From: a virus
Length of the DNA stretch: 39,493 nt
Strand: one strand, 5' to 3'
Virus record (IMG/VR): IMGVR_UViG_3300046511_000932
Span: 1 to 39,493 of that record
Shown here piece after piece: positions 3,045-39,493 of the stretch. The notes under the pieces are model-generated. The model did not search any database. It was not told where the DNA came from and saw only the letters and a list, made by a program, of their open reading frames with translations. The translations under genes and the position numbers were made by a program. Every line of letters starts with the position of its first letter. Position 1 is the first letter of the stretch.

Positions 3045-6000
3045 TTAGAGGCCGTAACGGTCTCGGCAGTAGTTGTTCCAGCGCGTAAGCACGGTGTCGG
3101 AGACGCGCGTCTTCGCGGTCCAGGCCTCGGCGATCTGGCCGTTGAAGTAGTTGCCGCCCAGGTTGCTGCCGATGGCGAGGGTTTGCGTGGAAATGTTGGG
3201 CGAAAGCGTCGTCGTGGTCGCTAGTGCACCGCCGTTAATGCTCAATTCTGCTGAATTCAGTGCAACGCTCCGTCTCCAAAAACATTGCTGCGTCGCCGTG
3301 GCAGCTACCGCTGTATTCGTGACCCACGATCGATTCGATGCATCGCCCGTGACCCCATACATCGCCGGCGCGTTCGCCAAAACGATTGTGAAGTACCCGG
3401 TCGCACTCAGGCCAATCAACGAAGCGTTGTTATAAACGTTGACCGGCGGGATCCCGTTGGTGGGAATGGTGTCGGCTCGGTAAACGACGCCCGTCGACCA
3501 TGCTGCGTTCGCGAGAATGTTGGGTGAAGCCGCGATCGTTCCCAACAAAGTGTCGGCGGTGCCATCAAAGTCGATGCTGGGGCGCCCGTTGAAGTTGGGG
3601 TCGCTCGTGATGAGGGCCGGCTGCTTGGTGCTGGTTGCCTGAACGACGTGGTAGCCATTGCCGCTCTGGTCGTCCCATTGGGTCACGGCGGAGCCCGAGG
3701 TTGTAACCACGTCGGCGCGAAACCAGGTCGACAGCGTCGGAATGTCGAGAATGCCCCAGTTCGCGACCGTAAGATTCTGCGCGCTCGACGACGTCGCGCC
3801 ATCGACGACCGTGATGGCCTTCGTACCGTTCGTATAGAGGACCGACGCGGTCACGGTGGCGCGCACCTGCGTCACCGAGTCGAAGATGGTCACGAGCGAT
3901 GTCGTGCCGGCCTTGACCACGCATGTCGCCGTGAAGTTCGAGCCGGTGCACGTGATGGTGAACGCATCGTCGTAGCGCGTCGCCGTGTTGGGCGAGACGC
4001 TCGTGAGGTTCGGCCCGACGCCCGGAACGTAGGGCGCAATGTCGAGGCGCACTGGACCCGAGATGCCGTTGACATTCGCGACCGTCACGTTCTTTCGGCC
4101 GGAGGTCGCGAGCACGGCGGCCGTCACGGATGCCGTGAGCGTGGTCGCATTGACGAACGTGGTCGCGAGCACGAAGCCATCGATGTTGACGAAGTCGCCG
4201 GATGTAAAACCCGTGCCCGTGACGGTGATCGTGAACGGCAGATCGAACTGAGTCGCGGTATTCGGCGAGCAGGACGTGGGAACGGCCAGCGTGCCGAGGG
4301 TGCCGAAGGTTGTGCCGTAGAGTGACGAGAGGACGTTGTCGATCTGGCTCTTGTGCGTGTAACTCAGGTCACTGTCGGTGATGAGCACGCAGCCGAGAAA
4401 GCCGGTGAACGCGCCTGAGGCCGCCAAGCGCCGGCCCACGAGGATGTTATTCGGCGTGAACGCCGCCGGATTCGTTCCGTGTACAGCCGAGAGCTCCGCG
4501 CCCCTGTTCGTCCGTGCGTAAAGCGAGCCGGCCGTCTTCCGCTGGCGGAAGATCCACGTTGCGCCGACGTCCCACGTGAACGTGGAATTGACGGCGGTCG
4601 CGGTGCCCGAGGAATCGAGCGCTTGAAGGAGGTTCGTGTCGAGCGCGGCCGCCAATACATATTGGCCGTTGTCGCATCCGATGGGCGTAGGGTTCGCCGC
4701 CGATTGGCTCGCCGCCGTGGCGCCGCCGACGACCCAGATGTTGTAGGAGAGCTTTTGGATGAGCCCATCGGGACCCGAGACGAGCCACGGAATGCCGCTG
4801 ACAAAATCGGGCCGGCTGCCCGTAAAGAAGGCCCCGGGTTGCCCATTGAAACCGCCCACGCTGGGCATGATGAGGGGCCGATTGCCGCTCGCGGACTGCG
4901 TGAGGTGATGGCCGTAGGAGGATAGGTCGTTCCACGACGACGCGCGGCCAGTGCCGTCGTCCATGAGGCTTGTGCCATCGAGCCAGAGGCGAAGCGGCGT
5001 CCCGATATCGCCGAAGGTCCACGCGGTGACGTCGAAGGGAAGCGTGTTGGTGTTGAACCCAGTCGCCGTGCGCACGCCAACTTGCGCGGTCCCCACAATG
5101 GCCAAGAGCGCCGACGTGACGGTTGCCCGGAGCGTGGTCGCATTGACGAACGTGGTCGTCAGCGGCGTCGCGCCCCACATGACTGCGTCCGTCGAAAGGA
5201 AGCTCGTCCCGGTCACCGTCAGGGAGAACGCGTCGAAGCCACGAACGCGCGACACCGAGTCGAGGCTCACGACCGATGGGGCCGAGACCTGCACATTCAA
5301 GGTCGCGCTCGTTCCGCCGCCGCCGCCGATGGTGGGGTTCGTGATCTTGATGGCCTTGGTGCCGGGCGAGCTCGTTACGGCTGCCGGCACGGTCACGACG
5401 ACGTGGGTCGCGTCCGTGTAGGTCGTCGTGACGGGCACGTTGTCGACGAAGCCCTGCGATCCGCCATCGGGCCAATCGGAAGCCCTGTAGAACTTCGTGC
5501 CCGCCGTCGCGCCGGTCACCGTCAGGCCGAAGTCGCCAGAGTCGATGGGAATGACGGCTACCGAAAGTGCCGTGGCCGACGGCGCCCGATAGCGCGCCTG
5601 AAAGAGCTTCGAGCCGCTGGCGCCGCCGCCGGGCTCAGGGTTCGAGAGGGTGATGGCGTGGTCACCCGCGCCGTCGACAACAGTAACGGGTACCGTGATG
5701 ATGATGGTCGTGGGGCTGCCGTACGTCGAAGCCACCGGGTCCCCATCGACCGCGGCCTCGGTGCCCGGGTTGTAAATTCCCGTCCCGGTGCCGGACACTG
5801 GCACGGCACCCTCGCCCAGAAACCCGAAGGCGGGCGTCACGGTCGCGAGAGTCGGGACGGGGAAGCTCACGGGCCACGACACCGTGTTTGACCCATGGCC
5901 AAGAGCGTCGAAGACACGGATGCTCTTGAATCCGGGGACGGCCGTGATGCCCGCAGCGACGGTGCACTGCAGGAGGAACGCAGAGACATAGGTCGTCGTC

Positions 6001-22458: not shown

Positions 22459-23982
22459 TTACGCTGCGCGCCGGCGTTGGCGCATCTCGTCCCGGGCCGC
22501 GCGCTTCATGCGCTCAGCCTCACGCTTGAACCACGCGCTCGTCTCGTATCCGGGCGGCATCGGCCGCACGTCGGGAAGGAACGGAACGAGCGAGAGCACC
22601 TTGGCGGCCGCGTAGTCGCAGTGCCGGCCGTCGGAGGTCTTCGGCAAGTGCGCACGCATGCCGGCCTGCGTGGTGCGGCGGCGGATGCGTTGCAAGTCGG
22701 TGCGGTAGTGGCCGTCGGTCGAGAGGGCCATCGTGCCGTCGGCGATGCCGTCGCGGAGGAAGAGGTAGCGCTTCGTCTCCTCCTCGCCCTGCACGCCGTC
22801 GACGAGCAGCGTGATGCCGTAGTCGGAGGCGTGGTCGCGCATGGCATCGGAGTAGTGCTGGTCGGTGCGCGTGAGGCTGCACCGGTACTTCGTCAGGAGG
22901 GGGCCGAGCTCTGTCCACACTTCGCGGGGCGAGAGCGGCTTCTGCGGCGTCCCGATCCATTCGCGCACGCACGCATCGACGATCTTGTTGCCGATGCGGG
23001 TCGAGATGACGAGGGTCCAGGCGTTGCGCCGCGTGGCCGGGTCGATGGCCGCCGAGTAGCTGGCGTTCGGGTCCGGCTCGAGGTCGCCCACGATCGTCCG
23101 GCACGCCTCGAGGCTGGCCTGGTCGATGAGATTGTCTTCCTGGTCGGCGAAGTCGGCGTCGAGGTTCGTGACGGCGATGTCCGGGTGCCGCGCGCGGAAG
23201 TCGGCGCAGCGCTCGGGCGTCCACCACTTGGGATTCATCCAGTAGCCAGGCGCCTTCAGGACGAGCATGCCGTCGCCCGGGCGTCCGAAGTACTCGATGA
23301 ACTTCTCGTACGCCGGACCGAAGGGCGCCCACGGCGAGCCGATGTGAAACATCATGCCCTTCGGCAGAATGCGACCCGTGCACTCTCCCCGCATATGGTC
23401 CCAGTTGATGACGCCTTCCTCGGCGCCGAGCATCTTGGGAAACTCGTCGAAGATGGCGCCGCCGAGCCACCGTGCGCTCACTGAGGCGCCGGCGCGGCTA
23501 CCGGCCGTGACCATGATCTCGCACGGATGGCCCGAGGGCGTCCGTACCACGAGCCGTTCGGCGTCGGGCTCCTCGAGGAGCAAGCCCGCGAGCTGGGGCG
23601 AGAGCGTGAGCGCGTTCTTTAGATGGCTATAAGCCTGGCCGGCGAGGTCCTTCGAGAGCGACACGATGGGAATGCGGAAGCTCTCGCCGCGCATCAGCAT
23701 CGACGTGTCCACGACCTGCGAGAGGCAGATGGCAGCGGCGGCGACGATGCTCGTCTTCCCGGCGCGGACGCCCGAGAAGACCACGAGCTCGTCGGGACGC
23801 TTCTCGACGCTCGCACCGCCGAGCGCCTTCACCACGGTCTCGTCGCCCGCGACGTCCCCCAAGGGCCGGTCATCGATGATGCGAGTGATGGCCTTCTGAA
23901 GCGGGGCCGGGTCGCAGATGCCCATGCCGCCGCGGGCGGTGAAGAGCCGCTCGACGGATTGGGTCAGGTAGCGGGCGAGCAT
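22459..23982 (-). CDS. Terminase large subunit
   Basis: 507-residue ATP-driven DNA packaging motor. The ATPase domain has a Walker A motif GVRAGKTS (residues 71-78), a Walker B AIFDE (D179, E180) and a coupling-type segment IGSPWAP around 214-220. The nuclease domain follows, with AAIDPAT where D314 is the likely first metal-binding acid. The start ATG 23982 lies inside the previous gene (19-base overlap). Upstream start codons in frame would add an Arg-rich, unlikely extension. The C-terminal tail is Arg-rich and probably binds the portal. Confidence 0.9.
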   Translation of the reverse strand: MLARYLTQSVERLFTARGGMGICDPAPLQKAITRIIDDRPLGDVAGDETVVKALGGASVEKRPDELVVFSGVRAGKTSIVAAAAICLSQVVDTSMLMRGESFRIPIVSLSKDLAGQAYSHLKNALTLSPQLAGLLLEEPDAERLVVRTPSGHPCEIMVTAGSRAGASVSARWLGGAIFDEFPKMLGAEEGVINWDHMRGECTGRILPKGMMFHIGSPWAPFGPAYEKFIEYFGRPGDGMLVLKAPGYWMNPKWWTPERCADFRARHPDIAVTNLDADFADQEDNLIDQASLEACRTIVGDLEPDPNASYSAAIDPATRRNAWTLVISTRIGNKIVDACVREWIGTPQKPLSPREVWTELGPLLTKYRCSLTRTDQHYSDAMRDHASDYGITLLVDGVQGEEETKRYLFLRDGIADGTMALSTDGHYRTDLQRIRRRTTQAGMRAHLPKTSDGRHCDYAAAKVLSLVPFLPDVRPMPPGYETSAWFKREAERMKRAARDEMRQRRRAA

Positions 23983-24260
23983 GGCTCCTCGGCCGCGTTG
24001 TAGGCGACGAGTCCGTAGAAGAAGAGGTGGGCGATACGCTTCGTGCTGTTGCGCGCATCGCATTCGCTCACTTCGAAGTAGCCCCCTTCGCCGTTGCTCG
24101 TGGCGTAGTCGATGGCGAGGCTCGGGTAGTCCGCGCCTTCATCGATGATGTAGACGTCGGGTATGCCTTCCTTCACGCCCGCCTCGGCGAACAGCGTCTC
24201 AAGCTCTCGCTGAATGGCGTCACGCACGGGGATGAAGTCGGAGGCGAGCCACTTCGTCAT
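23964..24260 (-). CDS. Hypothetical small protein upstream of the large terminase
   Basis: 98-residue acidic protein with an amphipathic N-terminal helix (VRDAIQRELETLFAEAG) followed by alternating strands (DVYIIDEGADYPSLAIDYAT, GGYFEVSECD). It may be a small alpha/beta adaptor. The start ATG 24260 overlaps the preceding stop (GTGATG; a GTG one codon earlier is also possible). It ends 19 bases inside the large terminase gene, indicating coupled translation. No family recognised. Confidence 0.65.
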   Translation of the reverse strand: MTKWLASDFIPVRDAIQRELETLFAEAGVKEGIPDVYIIDEGADYPSLAIDYATSNGEGGYFEVSECDARNSTKRIAHLFFYGLVAYNAAEEPCSPAT

Positions 24261-26406: not shown

Positions 26407-26945
26407 GACGACGCCCCCTCGAGGGCCTCGGCGGCCGCCTCGAACTGCGCGCGGACGTCGTCGGTCTCGGCCATCTTGGCGAGGGCGCGGAGGTAGACGC
26501 GAGCCTCTTCGGGGCCGAGCAGGTCGATGTTGTGCGGGAGCTCGATGGACTTCATCGCGATCTCGCTCTTCGTCTCGATGCGCTTGCCCCATCGCTTGTT
26601 GTGGCGGCGCTCGAGCAGCCACGCGTTCGGCTGCCAATCGATCTGACCCGCGACTTCGATGCGCCGAAGGAGGCCCACCTCGGCGTCGGCCATGGCCTTG
26701 CGCGTGGCGAGGTAGAAGCGGGCATGCGGCGCGTGCTCAGCGTCGTCGCCCTCGAGGGCGAGCTTCCCGATCTTCATCCAGCGCCGGTACGTGTCCCACG
26801 AGATGCCGGCCGAGATGCAGGCGACGGTGATGTAGTTGCCCGCGCGAATGGCATCGAGGGCGGCCATCGCTTCGGGGCCTTCGGGCGAGATGCCCTTCTT
26901 GCCCTTCGCCTTCTTCCAGTCTTTGGGAGCGCGAGGGTCGCTCAT
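26403..26945 (-). CDS. Terminase small subunit
   Basis: 180-residue DNA-recognition component of the packaging motor. The N-terminal ~70 residues form a helix-turn-helix (AIRAGNYITVACISAGISWDTYRRWMKIG), followed by a helical oligomerisation region (ARFYLATRKAMADAEVGLLRRIE) and PNAWLLERRHNKRWGKR, a pattern typical of small terminases. The C-terminus is acidic. It precedes the large terminase by about 2.4 kb, with small genes in between. ATGA overlap with the upstream glycosyltransferase-like gene. Confidence 0.8.
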   Translation of the reverse strand: MSDPRAPKDWKKAKGKKGISPEGPEAMAALDAIRAGNYITVACISAGISWDTYRRWMKIGKLALEGDDAEHAPHARFYLATRKAMADAEVGLLRRIEVAGQIDWQPNAWLLERRHNKRWGKRIETKSEIAMKSIELPHNIDLLGPEEARVYLRALAKMAETDDVRAQFEAAAEALEGASS

Positions 26946-27715
26946 CGCTGCCTCTCGAGGTCGTAGGCCTTCTCGACGAGGCCGCCGGCCTTCCAGGCGT
27001 GGGGCTGCACGTTGGTCAAGAGGCGCCAGTGGTTGCCGTGGTACTGGCGACCGAAGCGGGCGATGGGCCCCGTCTGCCAGCGATGCGCGCCGAGTCCGCT
27101 CACGTCGTCAGGCGGAGGGACCGAGGGCGTGCGGTGGTCGTCGCTGGCATTGCCCACGGTGCTCTCGCCCGGGAGCTGATGGCCGACGAGGCTCGGGAGC
27201 GTTGTGAGGATGCGCCGGCCCGTGGCCATCGCCCAGAGGTTGATGCGGCCGTCGTCCGTATGCTCGCCCGTGAAGTTCGCGTCGTGCCAGGCGAGGAACT
27301 CCTTCACGTTCTCGCGGTGCATGCCGCAGCCCACGCCGACGAGGCCATCGGGGGTCGTGTAGAAGGCAGCGCCCCTCGCGTGGGCTTCAGGCGCGCGCTC
27401 GTTCGCCGTGTAGAAGCAGACCGGGTCGCGGGGGCTGCGAGCGTTGGCGGCGTCGAGGGCATCGAGGGCCGCCTGCTTGAAGCCGACGGGCACGCTGGCG
27501 TCGTCGTTCAGGAGCACGATGAAGTCGGAGCCGTCCTCGAGCCCGTGCTCCCAGCACTTCCGAGCCGTCCACCAGGCGCCGCGCTTGGCGTCGTCCACCA
27601 TGAAGTAGGCGCCGTTGACCTCGAGGTCGCCGCCGAGCTGCCTATCGAGCGCGCGCCCCGACTCCACGCGCCCTGGGAACGCGGGGCAATGCATGATGTA
27701 GAAGGCGACGCTCAC
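26942..27715 (-). CDS. Glycosyltransferase-like protein (GT-A fold)
   Basis: 257-residue protein. The N-terminal part follows a nucleotide-sugar transferase outline: VAFYIMHCPAFPGRV, then FIVLLNDDASVPVGFKQAALDAL, where NDDAS (70-74) takes the place of the DxD metal-binding motif, then the acceptor-side GVGCGMHRENVKEFLAWHDANFTGEHTDDGRINLWAM. The strand/helix order resembles family-2 glycosyltransferases. The acceptor is unknown; candidates are phage DNA, capsid or host surface glycans. GTG start overlapping the previous small gene. Confidence 0.65.
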   Translation of the reverse strand: MSVAFYIMHCPAFPGRVESGRALDRQLGGDLEVNGAYFMVDDAKRGAWWTARKCWEHGLEDGSDFIVLLNDDASVPVGFKQAALDALDAANARSPRDPVCFYTANERAPEAHARGAAFYTTPDGLVGVGCGMHRENVKEFLAWHDANFTGEHTDDGRINLWAMATGRRILTTLPSLVGHQLPGESTVGNASDDHRTPSVPPPDDVSGLGAHRWQTGPIARFGRQYHGNHWRLLTNVQPHAWKAGGLVEKAYDLERQR

Positions 27716-27822
27716 GCCGCACCGCCCATCGGCCCGGGCGGACCTTCGTCGCGGCACGCCTCGATGACGATCCAAAGACCCACGAGAATGAGCACGGCGG
27801 TCACCTTGATGAAGGTCGTCAC
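27712..27822 (-). CDS. 36-residue single-pass membrane protein between two glycosyltransferase genes
   Basis: A very short ORF: GTG 27822 overlaps the stop of the upstream gene and its stop overlaps the GTG of the downstream gene, so it fills the space exactly. Residues 5-21 are hydrophobic (IKVTAVLILVGLWIVIE), followed by a hydrophilic Pro/Gly tail. The perfect stop/start overlaps on both sides and the high third-position GC support real translation. Function unknown; a membrane anchor or modulator for its neighbours is conceivable. Confidence 0.65.
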   Translation of the reverse strand: MTTFIKVTAVLILVGLWIVIEACRDEGPPGPMGGAA

Positions 27823-28514
27823 GCGGCCTCCCGGGGGCTGAAGAGCTGCCCCTGGTACACGTGCCGGCCGGCGTGACCGAACCACGCGGGGCCGTAGCAG
27901 TGAATGCGCCCGCCCATGCCCCGCCAGCGCTGGCAGAAGGCGTAGTCCTCGGAGAGGTAGCGCCGGCGCGTCGGCTCGATAAACGGGATGAAGAAGCCGA
28001 ACTGCGGCTCCCCGGGAGCGTCGTCCATGTCCGAGACGAGGAGGAGCTCCGGGTGCTCCTCCGCCATGCGCACGAGGACGCTCCGCTCGATGCAAAGAAA
28101 GCCCGTGGCAATCTCCTGCACCTCGAGCCAGCCGTCCGGCTCGGGCACGCTCACCCCCGCAGCGAGGTCCGCCTCGAGCGGATTCACGTTGAAGCCGGCG
28201 CCGATGGCCTTCTTCGGATAGGCCCCGCCAACGACAGGCTTTCCGCTCTCAATCAAACGCAGAACATCGGTCGACTCAAACGCGATATCGGCGTCGATAA
28301 AGAAGAGGTGCGTGCAGTCCGACTTGAGGAAGTCATGGGCCAGCCTGTTTCGGCCGCGGCTGATGAGAGAATCGTGAACGTTGAAATTAGCCTTGAAGAC
28401 GCAGCCTCTTTGGACGAGCGTGCTCACGAGCATCGTCCAGCTCTGGACAAACTCCGCGTCGAGATTGCCGCCAAAGTTGGGCACCGCGAAGTACGGTTTG
28501 AACAGCCAACCCAT
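27819..28514 (-). CDS. Glycosyltransferase-like protein (first gene of the late operon)
   Basis: 231-residue protein of a type often found in phages and in glycan clusters. The N-terminal region has ISRGRNRLAHDFLKS (residues ~51-65) followed by CTHLFFIDADIAFE, where D74-x-D76 is the DxD motif for metal-nucleotide-sugar binding, then LRLIESGKPVVGGAYPKK and an aromatic C-terminal domain with SEDYAFCQRWRGMGGRIHCYG. The ATG 28514 lacks a good SD. It starts the ~27-kb minus-strand operon and faces the ParA cassette across the regulatory region 28515-28656. Confidence 0.7.
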   Translation of the reverse strand: MGWLFKPYFAVPNFGGNLDAEFVQSWTMLVSTLVQRGCVFKANFNVHDSLISRGRNRLAHDFLKSDCTHLFFIDADIAFESTDVLRLIESGKPVVGGAYPKKAIGAGFNVNPLEADLAAGVSVPEPDGWLEVQEIATGFLCIERSVLVRMAEEHPELLLVSDMDDAPGEPQFGFFIPFIEPTRRRYLSEDYAFCQRWRGMGGRIHCYGPAWFGHAGRHVYQGQLFSPREAA

Positions 28515-30443: not shown

Positions 30444-30874
30444 GCCCTTTGCCGCTCCTCCTCGAGGACGCGTTGCCAGACCTCGATGCGCACGCCGTGG
30501 GGCATCTTCTTCGAAGCGCGGTCCTGGCCGTACCGCCATTCGACCCGGGGGTCACGGTCCGACTTGAGGCCGAGGGCGTCGGCGATGCCGTCGCGGACGG
30601 CCTTCAGGGCGCCGCGGAGGTTGTCGTCGTCGAGCTCGCCGCGCGAGAGGCGGGTCATGCGGACGACGAGGGGCATCGTGAGCGTCTGCGGCTCGTTCCG
30701 GTCGCCCGGGTAGGCGCAGAAGCCGGCGCGCCGAAGCGGCGTGGCGAGGGCCATGTACGCCCCCGTCCGTTGCGCCGCCGCTCGCCGAGCCCGCTCGTGG
30801 AAGTGGCTCCGGGCGTTGGCCTCGGAGACCGTCATGAGGGGCAGCTCCAGGGCCAGGACGAGAGGGAGGGTCAT
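30428..30874 (-). CDS. rusA: RusA-like Holliday junction resolvase
   Basis: 148-residue endonuclease of the RusA fold. The diagnostic segment is LDDDNLRGALKAVRDGIADALGL (starts at residue 81; DDDN 82-85 and D95 are metal-ligand candidates), followed by SDRDPRVEWRYGQ. RusA dimers cleave four-way junctions produced during recombination-dependent replication. It is coded next to the replication initiator and opposite the recombination operon with exonuclease and annealase. ATGA overlap with the initiator stop. Confidence 0.8.
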   Translation of the reverse strand: MTLPLVLALELPLMTVSEANARSHFHERARRAAAQRTGAYMALATPLRRAGFCAYPGDRNEPQTLTMPLVVRMTRLSRGELDDDNLRGALKAVRDGIADALGLKSDRDPRVEWRYGQDRASKKMPHGVRIEVWQRVLEEERQRAGTDG

Positions 30875-31974
30875 GCCGGCAAGCTCTTGTAGAAGCCCAT
30901 GACCTCCTCGCGAGCGGCGAGCTCCGGCGGAGGGGGCTGCACCTTCGCGGGACCGGCCTTGGGCTCCGTAGGCCTCTTCCGCTTTGGCCTCTCGTCGTCC
31001 TGCGTGTCGAGGAAGCGCCGGAAGGCGGGCGGGTCAAACGTCTCGCGCTCGGGTCGCCAGTACGAGAAGCGTCGTATGCAGGTGATGAGGGCCTTCGCCC
31101 GGTCTTCTCCCTCGAGGCCGACGGCGTCGAAGTAGCCCATGGCCGAGGCTAGGGCCTCGCGATTTGACGGCAGGCGCGGGTTGAACGACCACGCCGGATT
31201 GCCTTCGACCTCTCGCACCGCCGCGACGTACAGCTCCGCGTCGCTCGGCGGTGGGGGCACGGCCTTGAGCCGCATCTCGCTCACGGGCTCCTTCCGCGGA
31301 TTGCCCGAGGTTTCATAGCCTCCCCCCCCTTCTCGCATGGCCATGGGCATGGCCTCGTGGCCATGGCCTCCGATGGCCTGGCCATCCAGTGAGGCCATAA
31401 GGCCATCAGAAGGGGGGGATTGGATTTTCTCTTTGGTTTCTCGGATCTCAGAGGAAGAAGGAGATCCAGAAGGCCATGCAGGGGCCATGATGGCCTCGGG
31501 ATGGCCTTCGATGGCCTTGGCCATGGCCTGGCTATCCGGGGCCATGACCTTACGGGCTGCCTTGCCCCATCGCGCGAGGGCACCCTTCAGGCCGGCGGCG
31601 GAGAGCTTCTCGTTGCGAACCTTCTTCGTCTGCTCGAGGGCCTCGACGGTCGGCGCCGCGGGTTGGGTCCGCTGGTACGCGTCGAAGTCGTGGATCTGGA
31701 AGACGCCCTCGGCGACGACCTCGAGGAGGCCGGAGCGAACGAGGCGTTCGATGAGCCCGGGCACCGTGGCGCGGCGAAGGCGACCATCGGCCCCGGGCAT
31801 CCGGAGCTCGCCGAGCTCGTGGGCGATGCAGGCGGCGAGCTGCTCGGTGGTGACGTGGCCACCGGTCCGGTACTGCGCTGCCCAGCAAATGGCGTTGAGC
31901 CAGAGGGTTCGAGCGGCGACGCCGGCATCGAGGACCTTCGGGTGACGGGTCACCCGGTCATCGAGGAAGATCAT
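30871..31974 (-). CDS. Replication initiator (lambda O / DnaD-like organisation) with internal origin repeats
   Basis: 367-residue protein. Residues 1-100 form a winged-helix-like DNA-binding region (FLDDRVTRHPKVLDAG, then ATVPGLIERLVRSGLLEV, FQIHDFDAYQRTQP), as in phage replisome organisers. Residues ~143-213 are a Met/Ala/Pro/Ser-rich hinge encoded by the GGCCAT repeat cluster. Residues ~245-367 are a helical C-terminal domain (AELYVAAVREVEG, ALITCIRRFSYWRPE) likely to bind the host helicase or loader, with a basic Pro-rich end. Lambda O has the same order: N-terminal iteron binding, origin inside the gene, C-terminal helicase-loader contact. Start ATG 31974 is preceded by an AGGA; longer in-frame starts are Arg-rich and unlikely. 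Confidence 0.7.
   Translation of the reverse strand: MIFLDDRVTRHPKVLDAGVAARTLWLNAICWAAQYRTGGHVTTEQLAACIAHELGELRMPGADGRLRRATVPGLIERLVRSGLLEVVAEGVFQIHDFDAYQRTQPAAPTVEALEQTKKVRNEKLSAAGLKGALARWGKAARKVMAPDSQAMAKAIEGHPEAIMAPAWPSGSPSSSEIRETKEKIQSPPSDGLMASLDGQAIGGHGHEAMPMAMREGGGGYETSGNPRKEPVSEMRLKAVPPPPSDAELYVAAVREVEGNPAWSFNPRLPSNREALASAMGYFDAVGLEGEDRAKALITCIRRFSYWRPERETFDPPAFRRFLDTQDDERPKRKRPTEPKAGPAKVQPPPPELAAREEVMGFYKSLPA
31337..31545. repeat. GGCCAT/ATGGCC repeat cluster with AT-rich centre: candidate replication origin
   Basis: Within 209 bases there are 17 occurrences of GGCCAT or its complement ATGGCC, at 31337, 31339, 31349, 31359, 31363, 31373, 31380, 31393, 31401, then 31472, 31483, 31490, 31501, 31511, 31519, 31523 and 31540. 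Two blocks flank an AT-richer patch (31418-31440) and a 7-bp inverted repeat GGATCTC/GAGATCC (31443-31449, 31461-31467). By rough estimate fewer than one copy is expected by chance. The cluster lies in the hinge region of the initiator gene, as lambda's iterons lie in gene O. Initiator binding and melting of the AT-rich patch is the inferred role. Confidence 0.65.
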
Positions 31975-32118
31975 CTTCCTGCCCTCATCGGGCGACGGCC
32001 TTCGGCACTTCGGATGCTCCCCCCGCGACCTGCGCGGAAGGACAGAATGCACCGGTGTGCAGCTCCGGGGAATACCCTGGGGCACGCTGACACCAGCCCA
32101 CAATCAACCACTTCGCCC

Positions 32119-32206
32119 TTGACGCCGGGCGTCGCGCAAGTACGACTGCGCATAACCAGTGCTCCTAGGCGGCGTCCGGTTTCGACCCGGGCGCCGTCAC
32201 TTTTTT
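32119..32206 (+). ncRNA. Candidate short RNA, placed like lambda OOP
   Basis: TTGACG (32119-32124) and TACGAC (32141-32146), 16 bases apart, would start a plus-strand transcript near 32153 that ends at a strong intrinsic terminator at 32206, giving an RNA of about 55 nt. It is antisense to the leader of the initiator operon. Its stem loop (TTTCGAC) contains UUCG, which fits the YUNR U-turn motif common in regulatory antisense RNA loops. Lambda encodes OOP RNA at the same place and in the same orientation relative to cI, cro and O. Expression is not proven. Confidence 0.4.
32168..32206 (+). terminator. Rho-independent terminator, plus strand
   Basis: A 12-bp stem (32168-32179 with 32187-32198, two G-U wobbles) with a 7-base loop, followed within two bases by six T residues (32201-32206). 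No plus-strand gene precedes it, which is why a short regulatory RNA is suspected. Confidence 0.75.
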
Positions 32207-32271
32207 GTTGCATCGCTGATTCGTTCCGGCGGATTCGCCTGTTCACGTCGCTGCGGTTGCGCACACACACG

Positions 32272-32319
32272 AAAAAACGCTCACGCTGGCGCCACCTGGC
32301 AGGGCAGCGCAGCGTGAGC
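32272..32319 (-). terminator. Rho-independent terminator of the Cro-like gene
   Basis: On the minus strand GCTCACGCTG (from 32319) pairs perfectly with CAGCGTGAGC (ending at 32279), with a 21-base loop, and is followed by G and six T (32277-32272). It begins about 10 bases after the Cro-like stop codon. It separates Cro-like and initiator transcription and is a possible target for antitermination. Confidence 0.85.
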
Positions 32320-32328
32320 CAGTGAATG

Positions 32329-32607
32329 TCAGCCCGCTGCCCTTCGCGCGCGTGCCGCAACCCGCCTTGCCGAGTCGTAAGGAACGACCCGAGCGATCTC
32401 TTTTCGCTCGGTCTCGGTGAACCACGCGGAGGCGGGGATGACGCCCGAGGTCCAGATCTCGATCTTGTGACGCACGAGGGCCGCCGGCCGGTTCCCGTCG
32501 AACCAGAAGTTGATGGCGGACGGCACCACGCCCATGGCGCGGGCGAAGTCCCCCCTGCGAATCCCGCGGGATTCCAGGTACGAGCGCAGCATTTCGTGAG
32601 CGGTCAT
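32329..32607 (-). CDS. Cro-like helix-turn-helix protein
   Basis: 92-residue DNA-binding protein with a helix-turn-helix pattern GIRRGDFARAMGVVPSAINFW at residues ~15-35, followed by a strand region and a basic tail (RRVAARARRAAG). Small size, divergence from the CI-like gene and its own terminator support a Cro role (early repressor). Start ATG 32607; the upstream extension is unlikely because it would cross the operator. The SD GAAGG overlaps the operator at 32611-32632, so the operator lies directly on its translation start. The recognised features are the fold and context; a close named relative was not recognised. Confidence 0.75.
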   Translation of the reverse strand: MTAHEMLRSYLESRGIRRGDFARAMGVVPSAINFWFDGNRPAALVRHKIEIWTSGVIPASAWFTETERKEIARVVPYDSARRVAARARRAAG

Positions 32608-32610
32608 GGC

Positions 32611-32632
32611 CTTCAGAATGTTGGTACTGAAG
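32611..32632. promoter_or_regulatory. Operator-like palindrome 1 (immunity region)
   Basis: CTTCAG (32611-32616), ten bases, CTGAAG (32627-32632): perfect half-sites 16 bases apart. It abuts the Cro-like start codon. The same half-site/spacer design occurs at 33887-33908, suggesting a repressor binding site. A degenerate third site may be at 32658-32679 (CTT…, N10, CTGAAG). Confidence 0.65.
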
Positions 32633-32657
32633 CACCATGCAAGGTCTGAGATCAAGT

Positions 32658-32679
32658 CTTGCCGGTCAGGCTGCTGAAG
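32658..32679. promoter_or_regulatory. Possible degenerate operator 3
   Basis: CTTGCC (32658-32663), ten bases, CTGAAG (32674-32679). The right half is perfect, the left matches only CTT. Spacing equals the other sites and it lies 47 bases from operator 1, close to the repressor start. Weak on its own. Confidence 0.35.
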
Positions 32680-32701
32680 GAGGGCGCTGGTAGCCCCTCC
32701 T
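32678..32701 (+). promoter_or_regulatory. Hairpin covering the SD of the CI-like gene
   Basis: AGGAGGG (32678-32684), the only strong SD-like sequence, pairs with CCCTCCT (32695-32701) directly before ATG 32703. In linear form the SD is 18 bases from the ATG, which is too far. An in-frame TAG at 32691-32693 excludes an earlier start. The hairpin may hide the SD or alternatively present it; either way repressor translation seems structure-dependent. Confidence 0.5.
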
Positions 32702-32702
32702 C

Positions 32703-33155
32703 ATGCCCAAGGGACGCCGCCGAGACGAGCCCGTATCCGCGTACGTCGCGATGCGGATTGCGACCTGGGAGCGCGAGTCCAAGTTGTCTCTTGGGCAGCT
32801 CGCGCGGCAGGCGGGCGTTGCGCGCTCTCTTCTGAACCAGGTTCGCGCCGGCGAGACAGGGATCGCGTCAGGGAGCATCGAAGGCTTCGCGCGCACCTTC
32901 GGCTTCGAAAGCGGGCTCGCCATGCGCATCGAGGCCGCGCGGTGGTGGGAGACTGCTGAAGCTGCTGAATACCGCACGCGCGTTGCGCAACGTTTGGGTG
33001 CACTTAGCTCGCCCTTCGCTGGGCACACCGAGCTCGAGGCCGCGACGCATGCGCACGGCGCGCGTAAGCCCGAGAGCTCACAGCGCGCCGCCGCCATCGG
33101 AGGAGCCACAGCGACCCGATTCAAGCGTCCGGCCCTCCGTCCACCCCCCTCGTAG
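32703..33155 (+). CDS. CI-like phage repressor (helix-turn-helix)
   Basis: 150-residue protein. The N-terminal domain has an XRE/lambda-repressor-like helix-turn-helix: LSLGQLARQAGVARSLLNQVRAGETGIASGSIEGFARTFGF (residues 29-69; described by position). There is no S24 peptidase domain; the C-terminal ~75 residues are Ala/Arg/Pro-rich and probably disordered, so induction by RecA self-cleavage is not expected. Divergent from the Cro-like gene, with operator-like palindromes between them. Likely keeps the integration/recombination operon off in lysogens via the site at 33887. Confidence 0.7.
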   Translation: MPKGRRRDEPVSAYVAMRIATWERESKLSLGQLARQAGVARSLLNQVRAGETGIASGSIEGFARTFGFESGLAMRIEAARWWETAEAAEYRTRVAQRLGALSSPFAGHTELEAATHAHGARKPESSQRAAAIGGATATRFKRPALRPPPS

Positions 33156-33212
33156 CGCGCCGCCCGAGATCGAGCGCGCCGGGTCGAGGGCGCGTCTAAG
33201 GGTCGCTCGAAC

Positions 33213-33761
33213 CTAGCGCGAGGCCTGCGGCGTGCGGGGCGCCTCCCACCAGTTCCCCTTGAAGCTCTCCGTTGCGGAGGCCGGGCGAAGGCCGTTGGGC
33301 AGCGCCTGCCACTGCTCCTGCGGCACCCGCACGACGAGATAGGAGCCGACGGGCAGGTTCACGATGAAGTCCTGCGGGGGCATGTACGAGACGTTCGTCG
33401 TCGCCTGCGTGCCCTGGCGGTTCATCGTTGTATCGACGTGCGCGGAGCCCGGGAGCGTCGTCACGCGCTGGGCATAGCCCTCCGTGAGGATGAGGACGTG
33501 CGTGCCGCCACGGCGTGCCGCCTCCTCGCAGGCTTTCGCCTGGACGTCCTCCCGGTCCGCGTAGCCATTGCCACCGCCCCGGAGCTCCCCGAGGACGGTG
33601 CCGCCCGCCTCCGCAAGGGTCTTCACGTCGTCCTCGTAGGCCATCAGAGCCTTGTCGGTGACCTGCGGTGAGGGAACGGCGGAACGCGGGTGATAGCTGA
33701 CGCTGGCAGAAGCGCAGCCCGCCACGAGCACGGCGGCGGCGAGCGAAAAAGCACGGAACAT
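33213..33761 (-). CDS. Lipoprotein, probable lysogenic conversion gene
   Basis: 182-residue protein with a lipoprotein signal: MFRAFSLAAAVLVAGC, lipobox VAGC with the lipidated C16. The mature part contains YEDDVKTLAEAGGTVLGELRGGGNGYADREDVQAKACEEAARRGGTHVLI, an alpha/beta pattern resembling small envelope lipoproteins with stretches such as GG(T/A)xVLxxT. It sits between the repressor and the early operon, transcribed alone, which is typical of morons expressed from a prophage (for example superinfection-exclusion or serum-resistance lipoproteins). SD GGGAGG is present. Which envelope function it serves cannot be told. Confidence 0.75.
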   Translation of the reverse strand: MFRAFSLAAAVLVAGCASASVSYHPRSAVPSPQVTDKALMAYEDDVKTLAEAGGTVLGELRGGGNGYADREDVQAKACEEAARRGGTHVLILTEGYAQRVTTLPGSAHVDTTMNRQGTQATTNVSYMPPQDFIVNLPVGSYLVVRVPQEQWQALPNGLRPASATESFKGNWWEAPRTPQASR

Positions 33762-33923
33762 CGGAAAGGACCTCCCGCCCTCAGTTTCCTGGGACGGGGC
33801 TTCAGACGCTAGATGCGCGCCCGATCATGTCCGGGGACGTGCGTGCGCCTTGTCAGTGTTTTGAATATCGGCTTGACTCGTTAGGCCTTCAGGTTCAATT
33901 CTCTGAACACCTGGAGGCGCCCG
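33762..33923 (+). promoter_or_regulatory. Promoter region of the recombination/integration operon with operator 2
   Basis: TTGACT (33873-33878) and TTCAAT (33894-33899; 15-base spacer) or TCAATT (33895-33900; 16 bases) form a possible promoter. The operator-like site CTTCAG (33887-33892), N10, CTGAAC (33903-33908) covers the -10 area and the start point. A GGAGG SD (33913-33917) precedes ATG 33924. Divergent from the lipoprotein gene, whose promoter was not identified. Confidence 0.6.
33887..33908. promoter_or_regulatory. Operator-like palindrome 2 (early operon promoter)
   Basis: CTTCAG, ten bases, CTGAAC: the same half-sites and spacing as at 32611-32632, with one mismatch in the last base. 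Its overlap with the likely -10 element suggests repression by the CI-like or Cro-like protein. Confidence 0.6.
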
Positions 33924-34445
33924 ATGTCCCAAGCCCGTGCCCGCTACCTAAAGGCCCAAAAAGATTACGAATACGCCGTCGCGTCCGAGAAGAACGCCCG
34001 GCTTTCCTCGGACAAGCAGTCGCCCGAGCTGAACGTGGCCGCCATCGGTCTCGAGTACGCCGGGAACGAGCTCGCCCGGGCCCGTGAGAACTTCTACTCG
34101 GCCTTCCGAGCCGACCTCTCGGCGCACGACCTCGAGTTCAAGCGCCTCGAGCGGAACGCTCAGGCGGCGCAGCACGCGTTTTACCAGGCGAAGCTGATGG
34201 TCACGGAGCTCCGCCGGGTGCTCACGACCTCGCTCATGGCGCCCGAGGGGCTCGACACGCTCGATGCCGCGACGCGTGATTCCTACGCCCGGCTGAACGT
34301 GTCGACGCGCCAACTCGCCAAGGGCGGCGTCGCCTCGGTCGAAGCTGAGCTCCGGCTCCTCGAGGAGCGGGCCGAGGAGCACCAGGGCCGGGCCTACTGC
34401 TACCTCGAGGCCGCGCTCGAGCGCGAGGAAGCGAGGGCGGCATGA
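33924..34445 (+). CDS. Hypothetical coiled-coil protein, first gene of the recombination operon
   Basis: 173-residue protein, helical throughout and rich in Ala, Glu, Arg and Leu (YLKAQKDYEYAVASEKNARL, LEFKRLERNAQAAQHAFYQAK, LRLLEERAEEHQGRAY). Predicted long antiparallel coiled coil. No enzymatic motif. It has a strong SD (GGAGG) and is the first gene after the operator-controlled promoter, so it should be well expressed. ATGA overlap with the next gene. Function unknown. Confidence 0.7.
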   Translation: MSQARARYLKAQKDYEYAVASEKNARLSSDKQSPELNVAAIGLEYAGNELARARENFYSAFRADLSAHDLEFKRLERNAQAAQHAFYQAKLMVTELRRVLTTSLMAPEGLDTLDAATRDSYARLNVSTRQLAKGGVASVEAELRLLEERAEEHQGRAYCYLEAALEREEARAA

Positions 34446-34759
34446 CCCTCGACCAACTCCTCGTGCTCGCTCGCGCGGGCATCGCTGCCAACGTCATCGG
34501 CGCCGACCTTCTCTCGAAGGCGCTGCATCAATTCCAACCGGAGAACAACCTCGAGGCGCACCTCGACGCCGCCGAGATTGCGTTCGCGTGCCGCAAGGCC
34601 GACGCGCTGCAGGCGCTCCGCTTCCGGCCGTGGGCACGGAAGGCCCTCGAAGACGCCGCCGTGCTCCTCGAGGGCGTGGGCGCCGCGTGTGACATCGCCT
34701 CGGCCCTTCACCGGGTCGCGTCTCCCGCCAAGGAGGTCTCCCATGCCGTTCACGCGTGA
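34442..34759 (+). CDS. Hypothetical helical protein
   Basis: 105-residue, Ala/Leu-rich, all-helical protein (MTLDQLLVLARAGIAANVIGAD, AAEIAFACRKADALQALRFRPWARKALEDAAVLLEGVG). It ends in KEVSHAVHA, encoded by the first copy of a repeated gene junction (34731-34759) also used at the end of the next gene. Overlaps the next gene by 17 bases. No family recognised. Confidence 0.65.
   Translation: MTLDQLLVLARAGIAANVIGADLLSKALHQFQPENNLEAHLDAAEIAFACRKADALQALRFRPWARKALEDAAVLLEGVGAACDIASALHRVASPAKEVSHAVHA
34731..34759. repeat. Repeated gene junction, copy 1
   Basis: AGGAGGTCTCCCATGC (34731-34746), three bases, TCACGCGTGA (34750-34759): SD, ATG of the next gene and TGA of the previous gene in one compact cassette. 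The same 16-mer followed by the same 10-mer is found at 35011-35036. Confidence 0.7.
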
Positions 34760-35036
34760 CGACTTCGAGGCTCGCATGTGGGCCTCGCACTACAAGGATC
34801 TCGAGGCGCCCTCGGGCATCTGCCGCGCCTACGCGTCGATCTGGAAGAACCGCGGCGAGGAGCGGAGCTTCACAGTGCACCTTCACGGCTTCCACGCGAC
34901 CTCGGCGGTCGCCGGCCGTGTCGAGGGGCACGCAACGACCGTCGAGGCGGCTGAGGACCTCGCCGACGCCATGGCGAAACGCATCTTCGAGACGGGCTTC
35001 GCGCGCGACGAGGAGGTCTCCCATGCTCACGCGTGA
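34743..35036 (+). CDS. Hypothetical small protein
   Basis: 97-residue protein starting at ATG 34743, preceded by the SD AGGAGG at 34731-34736. Contains aromatic residues (ARMWASHYKDLEAPSGICRAYASIWKN), then a strand region (SFTVHLHGFHATSAVAG) and a helix. Ends in EEVSHAHA, nearly the same as the preceding protein's end, because both contain the same DNA junction. Overlaps the exonuclease gene by 14 bases. No function recognised. Confidence 0.65.
   Translation: MPFTRDDFEARMWASHYKDLEAPSGICRAYASIWKNRGEERSFTVHLHGFHATSAVAGRVEGHATTVEAAEDLADAMAKRIFETGFARDEEVSHAHA
35011..35036. repeat. Repeated gene junction, copy 2
   Basis: AGGAGGTCTCCCATGC (35011-35026) directly followed by TCACGCGTGA (35027-35036). 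Provides SD and start for the exonuclease gene and the stop of the preceding gene. It lacks the three-base insert of copy 1. Confidence 0.7.
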
Positions 35037-35937
35037 ACAGCTCGAGACGCGCCGCTCGATGATTGCGGCGACGGACGCGGTCATCCTTGCGGGGGTCTAT
35101 CCGGGCAAGAAGGGGCCGTCGTCGGTCTACCTCTCGAAGGTCGCCGAGCTCGAGGAGCGCGACGAGGAAGAGGCCTTGGCCCTTCGCCTCGGCAACCTCC
35201 TCGAGCCGCTGGCCATCGAGCTCGTGGCGGAGGAGCGCAACCTTTGGGTGGCTCCGGGCGAGACCGTGCGGCACCCGACCGAGTCGTGGATTGGCGCCAC
35301 GCCGGACGCCTTCCACGTGCGGCAATCTTCGGGCGCCCGCCTCGCTGTCATCGAGGCGAAGGCCGTCGGTCGCTTCCGCCTCTCCCACTGGGGCGAGGAG
35401 CTCGACGCGATTCCTGACTACGTCCACGTCCAAGTGCAGTGGCAGCTCCTCGCAACGGGGCTGAAGACGGCCTACGTGAGCGCGCTCCTCGGCCTCGAGC
35501 ACCGAAGCTTCGTCATCGAGCACGACGACACGCTCGCTTCGGCCCTCGTCGAGGTCTGCGAGGCCTTCTGGAAGAACCACGTGCTCGCGGGCAAGCCGCC
35601 TGCACCGGACGGTTCTGAGGACGCGTGGAAGGTTGTGAAGCGCGCGTTTCCGAAGCCCACGAAGGGTGGCCTCCTTTGGGCGCCCGGCCCCATCGAGGAC
35701 CTCGCGAAGGAGGCTTTGAAAGCCGCCGAGATGCGGAAAAAGTGGGAGGCCCTCGAGCAGCAGAAGAAGCAAGAGCTCTGCGCCCTGATTGGCAACGACG
35801 AGGGCTACGAGGGCGACGGCTGGCAGGCGAAGTGGAGTTTGCGGGCGGCGCACTCGCGCCCGGCGTGTGAGGTCGCAGCGAGCCGAGTGCTCGATGTGCG
35901 CGAGGTCAAGGCAGCGAAGAAGGGACGTGCAGCGTGA
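35023..35937 (+). CDS. YqaJ-type (lambda-exonuclease-like) recombination exonuclease
   Basis: 304-residue nuclease of the PD-(D/E)XK superfamily. RLGNLLEP (residues 55-62), WIGATPDAF with D95 and AVIEAKAV with E111 and K113 are the expected catalytic elements, followed by VQVQWQLL with Q137, the motif typical of YqaJ exonucleases. It should resect double-stranded DNA 5' to 3' and hand the 3' strand to the RecT-type annealase coded immediately downstream (GTGA overlap). The C-terminal 60 residues are helical and charged. Together with RecT this is a complete Red-like system. Confidence 0.88.
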   Translation: MLTREQLETRRSMIAATDAVILAGVYPGKKGPSSVYLSKVAELEERDEEEALALRLGNLLEPLAIELVAEERNLWVAPGETVRHPTESWIGATPDAFHVRQSSGARLAVIEAKAVGRFRLSHWGEELDAIPDYVHVQVQWQLLATGLKTAYVSALLGLEHRSFVIEHDDTLASALVEVCEAFWKNHVLAGKPPAPDGSEDAWKVVKRAFPKPTKGGLLWAPGPIEDLAKEALKAAEMRKKWEALEQQKKQELCALIGNDEGYEGDGWQAKWSLRAAHSRPACEVAASRVLDVREVKAAKKGRAA

Positions 35938-36893
35938 CGCAGGGCAATGGCAACGAACGGGCGATGCAGAAGAAGGAGCCGACGCCCGCGGCGCAGCTCA
36001 AGAACTTCCTCGAGAGCCCCGCGGTGAAGGCGAAGCTCGCCGCGGTCGCAAACAAGCTCATGAAGCCCGAGGATCTGATCCGAATGGCCCTCATGGCCGT
36101 CTCGCGGAGCCCGGATATCGCGAACTGCACGCAGGCCTCGATCCTGCGCTCGCTCATCGACGCCGCCGAGCTCGGCATTCAGCCCGGCGGGACCATGGGC
36201 CGTGGCTACCTCGTGCCGCGGATGAACAAGAAGGTCCAGCCATGGGCCCTCGAGTGCTGCTTCGACCCGGGCTGGCGCGGGCTCATCGATGTCGCGCGCC
36301 GGTCCGGGGAGATCGCCCGCCTCGAGGCGCACGTCGTCTATGCGAAAGACACCTTCCGGGAAGAGAAGGGTATCAAGCCCGTGCTCGAGCACGTGCCGTA
36401 CGACGGCGACGACGACCCGGGGCCAGTGCGGAAGGCCTATGCGATCGCGTTCTTCAGGGACGGGACCTACCAGGCCGAGGTCCTCCGCAAGGCGGACATC
36501 GACAAGATTCAGAAGTCCTCGGCGTCGGCGAATGGCCCTTGGAAGAACTGGTACGACGAGATGGCACGGAAGAGCGCCGTCCGCCGCCTCTGCAAGTACC
36601 TCCCGTACAGCTCGCAGCTCGAGAAGGCCCTCGAGAAGGCAACCGAAGCCGAGGTCGAGGACAGCATGGTTCAGGACATCGACGTCGTCATTGAGGGCAA
36701 GCCGAAGGGCGCAGCGCTCGCGGACAAGATCCGGTCGCGCGCCACGAACGGCGTGCCGAACGATATCGAAGTGCGCGAGCTCGAGGAGATGCTCGCCGCA
36801 CCGACGGGCGGCTTCGATGAAGAAGAGCGCAGTCCTGTCCCGCCCGCCGTGGGAAGCCGCCCGGGTGCACGCGAGCCGGGGGAAGAGGGATGA
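35934..36893 (+). CDS. recT: RecT-family single-strand annealing protein
   Basis: 319-residue annealase. RecT-typical pattern: LIRMALMAVSRSPDIANCTQASILRSLIDAAELGIQPGG (residues ~45-85 by position), GRGYLVPR, FDPGWRGLIDVARRSG, AHVVYAKD and later PWKNWYDEMARKSAVRRLCKYLP, all hallmarks of the family. It anneals complementary single strands exposed by the upstream exonuclease. GTG start in overlap with the exonuclease stop. The C-terminal ~60 residues are acidic and Pro-rich, probably disordered. Confidence 0.9.
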   Translation: MTQGNGNERAMQKKEPTPAAQLKNFLESPAVKAKLAAVANKLMKPEDLIRMALMAVSRSPDIANCTQASILRSLIDAAELGIQPGGTMGRGYLVPRMNKKVQPWALECCFDPGWRGLIDVARRSGEIARLEAHVVYAKDTFREEKGIKPVLEHVPYDGDDDPGPVRKAYAIAFFRDGTYQAEVLRKADIDKIQKSSASANGPWKNWYDEMARKSAVRRLCKYLPYSSQLEKALEKATEAEVEDSMVQDIDVVIEGKPKGAALADKIRSRATNGVPNDIEVRELEEMLAAPTGGFDEEERSPVPPAVGSRPGAREPGEEG

Positions 36894-37350: not shown

Positions 37351-37577
37351 GCCGCGACGCCGCCCTTCGCCGTGCCGCCTCGGCCCTCTCGGCCGCCGGC
37401 ACGGCGCTCCAGGACGCCGCCCAGGCCCTCGCCGAGGCCACGGGCGAGGAGAGCGTCCGCACGCGCAAGCCTCGAAAGGGGCCTGTCTTCGAGCCTCCGC
37501 CTCCTGAGCCGCCGTCGGCGCTTCACATGGCCCGGGCTCGTGACCTACTCAAGAAGCGGGGAGTGACAGCAGCATGA
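37347..37577 (+). CDS. Hypothetical small protein upstream of integrase (excisionase position)
   Basis: 76-residue protein: Ala-rich helix (RRAASALSAAGTALQDAAQALAEA), a basic Pro-rich linker (RTRKPRKGPVFEPPPPEPP) and a short C-terminal helix (MARARDLLKKRGVTAA). Small basic proteins directly before int are often excisionases, but no winged-helix pattern was visible, so this remains open. The stop overlaps the integrase start (ATGA). Confidence 0.6.
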   Translation: MSRDAALRRAASALSAAGTALQDAAQALAEATGEESVRTRKPRKGPVFEPPPPEPPSALHMARARDLLKKRGVTAA

Positions 37578-38962
37578 TCCGAGCGAGAGGAACCGGCACC
37601 ATCGAGCCGTTGCCGTGGGGCGGCTTTCGGGTGCGCATACCCATCGCGGGCGTGCGCGAGGACTTCGGCCCGTTCGCGACGCGCGAGGAGGCCGAGGCGA
37701 TGGCGGCGGCGCTGCGGCTCACCGCGCAGCGGGAAGGCGTTGTCATCTCGGGCGTGAAAACGCTCGCGGCCTACGGGCCCACGGTGCACGACGAGCGCGA
37801 GAAGTCGGGCTACACGACCGTCGAGGACCACCGGGGCATCTGGCGCCGCGAGGTGCTCCCGTGGTCGTGCTCGAAGTGGCCGCTCGCCGCCGTCGGCGCG
37901 GGCGACGTCCGCCGATGGGTCTCTGCCCTCTCGGCGAAGCACAAGACGTCGACGGTGAAGAACTGCCTCTCGGCCCTCCGCGCGGTCTTCTCCGCGGCGA
38001 CGCAGGACGGGCTCGTCGAGGTGAACCCTTGCAAGGGCGTCGACATTCGCGGCCGCGGGACGACCGAGGAGACGTCGACCTTCCTCTCGCGTCTCGAGCT
38101 CGAGGGCCTCATCGAGGCGGCCGGCGCGCCCGACGGGCTGCTCGTCGCCTTCGCCGCGGGCACCGGCCTCCGGCAAGGCGAGATGCGCGGACTGCTCGCC
38201 GCCGACGTGCACCTCGATTGCCCTGCGCCCTGGATGACGGTCCGCTTCGGGGCGCCGGGCATGCCGACGAAGCCGCGCCGCATCCGGAAGGCCCCCATCT
38301 TCGGGCTCGCCCTCGAGGCGGCCCGGGCGTGGATGAAGGTCCGGCCGAAGAGCGACCGGGGCCTCATGTTCCCGCGGCCCTCCGGCGAGCCGCGGGCGAA
38401 GGGGGCCATGGTGACGGGCGACGCGTGGGAGGCGTGGCTACGGACGGCCGGCATCCGGCGCAACGTCCGCTGGCACGACCTCCGGCACACGTGCGCGACC
38501 CTGCTCCTGCAGGGGGCCTGGGGCCAGCCCTGGAGCCTCGAGGAGGTGAAGGAGATGCTCGGGCACTCCAGCCTGCGCGTCACCGAGCGCTACGCCAAGG
38601 CGACCGGGTCCTTGGCCGACCGCGCGGCGGCGGAGAAGTTCGGTCCTGAACGGTCCTGGCTGCCGTCCCTGGCGATCGCATCGGCAGGGGAATTATCGAG
38701 GCGTGGATCGGATTCGAACCGACGTATGACGGTTTTGCAAACCGGTCCTCTCCTAAGTGAGTACGGGCACTTAGGCGCGAATCTGGTCTCTCCCGGGACT
38801 CTCGAAGCCGTCGAGACCGCCAGCCACGCCTACCTCCGGGCCGTCGTCGCTGGGGACCGGCACGCCCACACGAAGGGCCTCGAGCTCGTCGCCCGGGTGC
38901 ACATGTTCGTCGACGAGCTCCGGGCCGCCATGGCGCCGCCAGCGCAGGAGGGCGTGGCGTGA
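37574..38962 (+). CDS. int: Tyrosine integrase with attP inside its coding sequence
   Basis: 462-residue tyrosine recombinase. N-terminal arm-binding part (GTGTIEPLPWGGFRVRIPIAG, 7-27), core-binding SAM-like region (~70-160), catalytic domain with R200 (GTGLRQGEMRG), H301/R304 (HDLRH), H331 (LGHSSL) and nucleophile Y340 (TERYAK). After a normal end near residue 355 the frame continues through the attP core (residues ~375-391, the typical antisense-tRNA peptide GSDSNRR…LQTG) and adds a 71-residue tail with excellent codon bias. Integration would replace this tail with residues read from the antisense strand of the host tRNA 5' half. Myxococcus phage Mx8 has the same design. Overlaps neighbours by ATGA/GTGA. 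Confidence 0.9.
   Translation: MIRARGTGTIEPLPWGGFRVRIPIAGVREDFGPFATREEAEAMAAALRLTAQREGVVISGVKTLAAYGPTVHDEREKSGYTTVEDHRGIWRREVLPWSCSKWPLAAVGAGDVRRWVSALSAKHKTSTVKNCLSALRAVFSAATQDGLVEVNPCKGVDIRGRGTTEETSTFLSRLELEGLIEAAGAPDGLLVAFAAGTGLRQGEMRGLLAADVHLDCPAPWMTVRFGAPGMPTKPRRIRKAPIFGLALEAARAWMKVRPKSDRGLMFPRPSGEPRAKGAMVTGDAWEAWLRTAGIRRNVRWHDLRHTCATLLLQGAWGQPWSLEEVKEMLGHSSLRVTERYAKATGSLADRAAAEKFGPERSWLPSLAIASAGELSRRGSDSNRRMTVLQTGPLLSEYGHLGANLVSPGTLEAVETASHAYLRAVVAGDRHAHTKGLELVARVHMFVDELRAAMAPPAQEGVA
38641..38775. other. attP region: arm-type repeats and inverted repeat around the core
   Basis: CGGTCCT occurs at 38641-38647, 38651-38657 (two copies in tandem, one helical turn apart) and 38743-38749, at the far edge of the core. 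CCTAAGTG (38752-38759) and CACTTAGG (38768-38775) form a perfect 8-bp inverted repeat just beyond the core. Such repeats beside a tRNA-like core are candidates for integrase arm sites and accessory protein sites. All lie within the int coding frame. Confidence 0.55.
38697..38745 (-). other. attP core: 3' half of a tRNA-Cys gene
   Basis: Read on the minus strand from 38745 to 38697 this is the 3' half of a tRNA: anticodon stem 5' arm CCGGT, loop TTGCAAA with anticodon GCA (Cys), 3' arm ACCGT (one mismatch at the outer pair), variable loop CATAC, T-stem GTCGG / loop TTCGAAT / CCGAT, and acceptor 3' strand CCACGCC followed by T and CGA. No D-arm or 5' acceptor strand precedes it, so it is not a complete tRNA. 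Phages that integrate into tRNA genes carry exactly such a segment to restore the host tRNA. The host attB is therefore predicted to be a tRNA-Cys(GCA) gene. Confidence 0.85.
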
Positions 38963-39359: not shown

Positions 39360-39491
39360 ACGGAAGACTACGCGCAAGCCCTGGCCGCGATGCGCCTCGC
39401 CGAGCGCGAGCTCGCGCAAAGGCGGGCGGCGTACGTCGAGTACATCGGCGAGCTCGCGGACGTCGTGCAGAGCGAGGAGGTGAAGCCGTGA
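39129..39491 (+). CDS. Fused small coiled-coil protein created by tandem duplication
   Basis: 120-residue protein. Residues 1 to ~76 match the protein at 122-400; from TEDYAQALAAM on it is identical to residues ~15-57 of the protein at 38959-39132. It is thus a fusion of the two neighbouring genes, produced when the unit duplicated in frame. GTG start in overlap with the preceding stop; the stop overlaps the GTG that starts the next gene (base 39488, equal to 122). Helical and charged; no function recognised. Confidence 0.7.
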   Translation: MSTAKPAQMTLPALRAHCKALEDCLARANKELRAAKKDLKHRNEQVTFHADHARKNAEDAQATREALRSVLSALSAGTEDYAQALAAMRLAERELAQRRAAYVEYIGELADVVQSEEVKP

Positions 39492-39493
39492 GC

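Follow-up and report, generated by a model that had tools for sequence, protein, structure and literature searches.

The contig studied here, from an uncultured temperate phage (39,493 nt, analysed over its whole length), contains two copies of an inverted repeat, designated O1 and O2, at the heads of two divergent gene units. These copies are probably operators at two divergent early promoters, recognised by a single HTH regulator system that the phage itself encodes. In two distant relatives, the Myxococcota prophages G120 and G164, paired sites of another sequence are found in the same arrangement; control of both gene sets by one regulator is therefore probable. A layout that is kept while the operator sequence changes fits a phage regulator together with the sites that it recognises, and this comparison is the decisive evidence.

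Two dyads and the adjoining genes

The features of the region are as follows.

30871–32103, minus strand: replication-initiation-like protein (PHROG 2447), encoded after the Cro-like gene in the leftward operon
32329–32607, minus strand: Cro-like HTH protein, 92 aa, heading the leftward operon; weak HTH_3 match; homologues in Myxococcota prophage-like loci
32611–32632: putative operator O1, which ends 3 bp short of the Cro-like ATG, over the predicted -10/start region of the leftward promoter; position kept in relatives
32637–32642, minus strand: candidate -35 hexamer TTGCAT (3/6), 35 nt before the Cro-like ATG; weak alone
32703–33155, plus strand: CI-like HTH protein of 150 aa, its gene transcribed away from the Cro-like gene; weak HTH_31/HTH_3 match
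33213–33761, minus strand: small gene for a putative lipoprotein (moron), located between the CI-like gene and O2
33873–33878, plus strand: -35-like hexamer TTGACT (5/6) of the putative rightward promoter, 8 nt from the operator, as in G120 and G164
33887–33908: putative operator O2, over the predicted -10 region of the rightward recombination/integration (rec/int) promoter
33924–34445, plus strand: 173-aa protein without assigned function, encoded at the head of the rightward operon
35023–35937, plus strand: RecE/YqaJ-like exonuclease (longest frame 34756–35937)
35934–36893, plus strand: RecT ssDNA annealing protein
37574–38962, plus strand: tyrosine integrase

O1 reads CTTCAGAATGTTGGTACTGAAG and has perfect 6-bp arms (CTTCAG-N10-CTGAAG), and O2 reads CTTCAGGTTCAATTCTCTGAAC with perfect 5-bp arms (CTTCAG-N10-CTGAAC). 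A preliminary description of this DNA had reported the same dyad with equal half-sites at both positions, and both copies are present. O1 had been placed on the Cro-like start, which it adjoins, ending short of the ATG (32607, minus strand). O2, placed over the likely -10 of the recombination operon, begins 8 nt after TTGACT and lies approximately 15 nt upstream of the ATG of the rightward unit.

Perfect matches to TTCAG-N10-CTGAA occur exactly twice in the whole 39.5-kb contig (32612–32631 and 33888–33907), and both are intergenic and head the two divergent units. No match with one mismatch was found in the whole contig; eight further matches with two mismatches were found, giving a total of 10 versus 8.4 expected. 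The virus record consists of this contig alone, and a search of the record returned the same two matches. Many copies inside coding genes had been named in the preliminary description as speaking against shared operators, and the scan yielded two perfect copies instead. A degenerate third site, previously suggested at 32658–32679, was rejected as a chance-level match: it carries mismatches at 3 of the 12 positions, and 28 matches as good or better were found versus 13 expected.

The centres of the O1 and O2 half-sites lie 16 bp apart; the half-site spacing of classical XRE dimers is narrower. An Rfam search of 32000–34500 gave no match, and the RNA folding of 32608–32720 was no better than that of shuffled sequences, so the dyads were read as DNA sites and not as RNA elements. 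A LexA-type site was considered as the identity of the dyads from general knowledge and was not favoured.

The leftward unit begins with the Cro-like gene and continues with the genes of the replication-initiation-like protein, the small terminase subunit, terminase, capsid, adaptor and lysis proteins. The rightward unit, which includes exonuclease, RecT and integrase, extends through the contig ends. Since O1 and O2 head these opposite units, they are likely to mark two divergent early promoters. No consensus sigma-70 promoter was detected. On the leftward side, TTGCAT corresponds in position to the TTGACT/TTGACG hexamers of relatives, and TTGATC at 32650–32655 is an alternative -35 candidate.

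The divergent arrangement of Cro-like and CI-like genes beside O1 is common to the homologues, with the HTH family matches of both contig proteins below curated cut-offs. The CI-like protein showed weak similarity to the divergent genes of G164 and of G314, a further relative. Its AlphaFold model, built from one sequence, had a mean pLDDT of 51 and was set aside. Note that a dyad with 7-bp arms, AGGAGGG-N10-CCCTCCT, is located at 32678–32701 directly before the CI-like ATG; it is not significant alone and may serve in autoregulation or form an RBS hairpin. In addition, dense GGCCAT/ATGGCC repeats, possibly origin iterons, were found at 31340–31550 within the replication-initiation-like gene.

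The two-site layout in Myxococcota prophages

Scans of IMG/VR and GTDB contigs with single proteins (RecT, Cro-like, TerL, MCP) revealed no close relative. A search of Myxococcota with the Cro-like protein, and then with a three-sequence profile, led to homologues in prophage-like loci, with homology of approximately 30% over a short protein. The dyad motif of the contig itself was found in no relative. Relatives obtained with a RecT profile have nothing in common with the contig beyond the rec/int genes, except that L099 gave a single weak Cro-like match, and therefore were unable to test the operator. The TerL search in Myxococcota gave distant terminase relatives only.

Like the contig, the G120 and G164 prophages have a distant Cro-like homologue, a divergent CI-like gene, an operator against the Cro start and a second copy at a rec/int operon. 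The palindrome shared by these prophages, CAGTAGCTACTGNTACT, is unlike the contig dyad: their operator is contiguous (CAGTAGCTACTG), whereas that of the contig is a dyad with a 10-base spacer. The palindrome was found in 2 of the 377 Myxococcota genomes (G120 and G164, at two places each) and was absent from the other 375. In both prophages, as in the contig, one copy is located immediately upstream of the Cro-like start codon, namely TCAGTAGCTACTGTTACTGACT-ATG in G120 and GCAGTAGCTACTGCTACTCC-ATG in G164.

One further operator copy was found in each of the three, at the rec/int operon and 8 nt after a TTGAC hexamer: TTGACT-N8-operator in the contig and TTGACC-N8-operator in G120 and G164. This spacing was counted from the printed sequences, with the operator of the relatives taken as the 16-bp core. 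In G164, the second copy is located 1,097 bp from the first on the CI side, inside a 34-bp perfect palindrome (CACGAAAGTAGCAGTAGCTACTGCTACTTTCGTG, 18691–18724 of L219) centred on the operator. It precedes leftward genes including excisionase and tyrosine integrase, and is separated from the CI-like gene by an HNH gene, in the place taken by the lipoprotein gene in the contig. The second copy of G120 lies at the beginning of contig C8 and precedes genes for an exonuclease, a Sak4-like annealing protein, SSB-like and ParB-like proteins and an integrase. The 5' ends of the G120 contigs C8 and C11 share an 8-nt reverse-complementary overlap (ATCCAAGT, seen by eye), which suggests that the two contigs may adjoin. 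The genomes are not alike in their recombinases: RecT is encoded in the contig and Sak4 in G120, and none was seen in G164.

On the Cro side, G120, G164 and G314 have TTGACT or TTGACG beginning 36–37 nt ahead of the Cro start codon (3/7; p ~1e-4). At this distance transcription would begin on or close to that codon, which points to a leaderless cro mRNA. The best-studied leaderless mRNA is that of lambda cI (PMC11514452). In the contig only TTGCAT is found at the same position (35 nt), so leaderless initiation is more weakly indicated there.

TAGCTA-centred palindromes precede the Cro start in G041 and G314. The second copy of CGTTAGCTAA in G314 is 1.2 kb away beside ordinary bacterial genes, without an integrase operon, and no second palindrome copy was found in the 60 kb read from G041; the rec/int link is thus neither supported nor refuted by either. 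The structural relative L183, with homologous terminase, portal, capsid and adaptor, has its own boxes CTAGYNRACTA flanking a divergent control region (3630–3830): those at 3636 and 3654 lie toward exonuclease/Sak4 and that at 3802 before repressor/helicase genes. This sharing of boxes between the two sides counts in favour of the common-operator reading.

Proposed regulation and alternative explanations

In the proposed mechanism, O1 would cover the -10/start region of the leftward promoter, which serves the Cro-like gene and then the replication and late genes, and O2 would cover the -10 of the rightward promoter of the exonuclease-RecT-integrase operon. Both sites would be bound by the CI-like protein in a lysogen and by the Cro-like protein at other times. 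RNA polymerase would then be shut out from both promoters and neither unit expressed, which is how CI and Cro act at lambda OR/OL. The action of one regulator on the Cro and rec/int promoters, already predicted in the preliminary description, is supported by the same layout with a different operator in the two Myxococcota prophages. The role of the CI-like protein as repressor at O1 and O2 is an assumption, and the little that bears on it favours the Cro-like protein at least equally.

The arrangement resembles lambda OR/OL in that one operator type is present at both divergent early promoters, with cro and replication on one side and recombination and integration on the other. The lambda operators are 2.3 kb apart (PMC3708714), whereas the spacing in the contig is 1.3 kb. 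In addition, lambda has three 17-bp sites per promoter and the contig has one spaced 22-bp dyad, without tandem subsites. With a single site per promoter and binding predicted from the DNA, the pair would work like lambda OL/OR and is not classified here as lambdoid. The contig regulators are likened to CI and Cro by layout; sequence homology and looping are not part of the likeness. Another parallel is Apl of phage 186, a regulator that links the lysis-lysogeny promoters to integration and excision (PMC7498355). The Apl sites at pR-pL and att are direct repeats (PMC7498355), whereas the contig has an inverted repeat at the rec/int promoter.

The evidence from the contig sequence alone gives the O1/O2 pair a modest significance against chance. 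Repeated 5-bp dyads are frequent in the contig, and for any repeated dyad (arm of at least 5, equal spacer of 0–20) in approximately 1.6 kb of intergenic DNA the look-elsewhere p is ~0.16, which would allow O2 to be a chance match, with O1 alone or neither site being an operator. However, both copies read GGCCTTCAG-N10-CTGAA (14 bases in common), and for a dyad pair with this common flank in the same amount of intergenic DNA p falls to ~0.016. When up to one mismatch is allowed, the 12-base motif is expected in 0.05–0.09 copies per whole contig and, given O1, in ~0.0002–0.0003 copies in the 162-bp promoter region 33762–33923. The presence of just two near-perfect copies in 39.5 kb, both at operon heads, and of the same layout in G120 and G164 makes a chance origin of O2 unlikely. 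It is far less probable that the sites bind a host regulator, such as LexA or another SOS factor, coupling both units to the state of the host. Two sites at two promoters would fit a host factor too, and both phage regulators have weak HTH scores, but in the relatives the site has another sequence and occurs just twice in a 7-Mb genome, unlike a host regulon, and the operator abuts the phage cro gene.

The identity of the binding protein leaves room for a narrower form of the preferred explanation, in which O1 and O2 are chiefly sites of the Cro-like protein, which would shut off its own gene and the rec/int genes during infection, with the CI-like protein acting elsewhere, for example at 32678–32701. 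G120 and G164 have a common operator and similar Cro recognition segments (GVTHPAV and RVTHASW), and their CI-CI comparison gave no convincing similarity; these two cases make the Cro-like protein a serious binding candidate. On the other hand, CI and Cro of the lambda type usually bind common sites, the 32678–32701 dyad lacks significance by itself, and the comparison includes two relatives only. We regard such a restriction to Cro as possible but not probable. Slightly more speculative is the idea of a little-studied Cro family of phages and prophages (with relatives in Myxococcota) with a minimal two-site switch, in which operators would lie at a leaderless cro promoter and at the rec/int promoter, specificity would follow the Cro recognition helix, and the unusually wide 16-bp spacing in this phage would mean that binding has a geometry unlike the classical XRE dimer.

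With O1 and O2 taken as operators of one phage regulator system, the lambda logic of one regulator, two divergent early promoters and recombination tied to immunity would extend to an uncultured lineage in which few proteins can be recognised. An operator pair per phage offers a handle for finding and testing cognate regulators, and the relatives form a small set for operator-regulator co-evolution.

Other features of the phage genome

The two ends of the contig carry an exact 127-bp repeat (1–127 = 39367–39493) by which it closes on itself, and it is therefore probably a whole genome; the overlap represents either a circular genome or an assembler repeat. A tandem duplication of approximately 359 bp (96% identical) of a small-gene segment was also found at the contig ends (1–356 and 39008–39362). 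The large terminase (22459–24063, minus strand) had no match in Pfam, PHROGs or NCBIfam, and was identified by weak similarity to a terminase-annotated phage record and by 36–38% identity to distant relatives. The phage lineage is poorly covered by the libraries. A glucosyltransferase-like gene (PHROG 854; 26942–28111, minus strand) adjoins the gene of the small terminase subunit.
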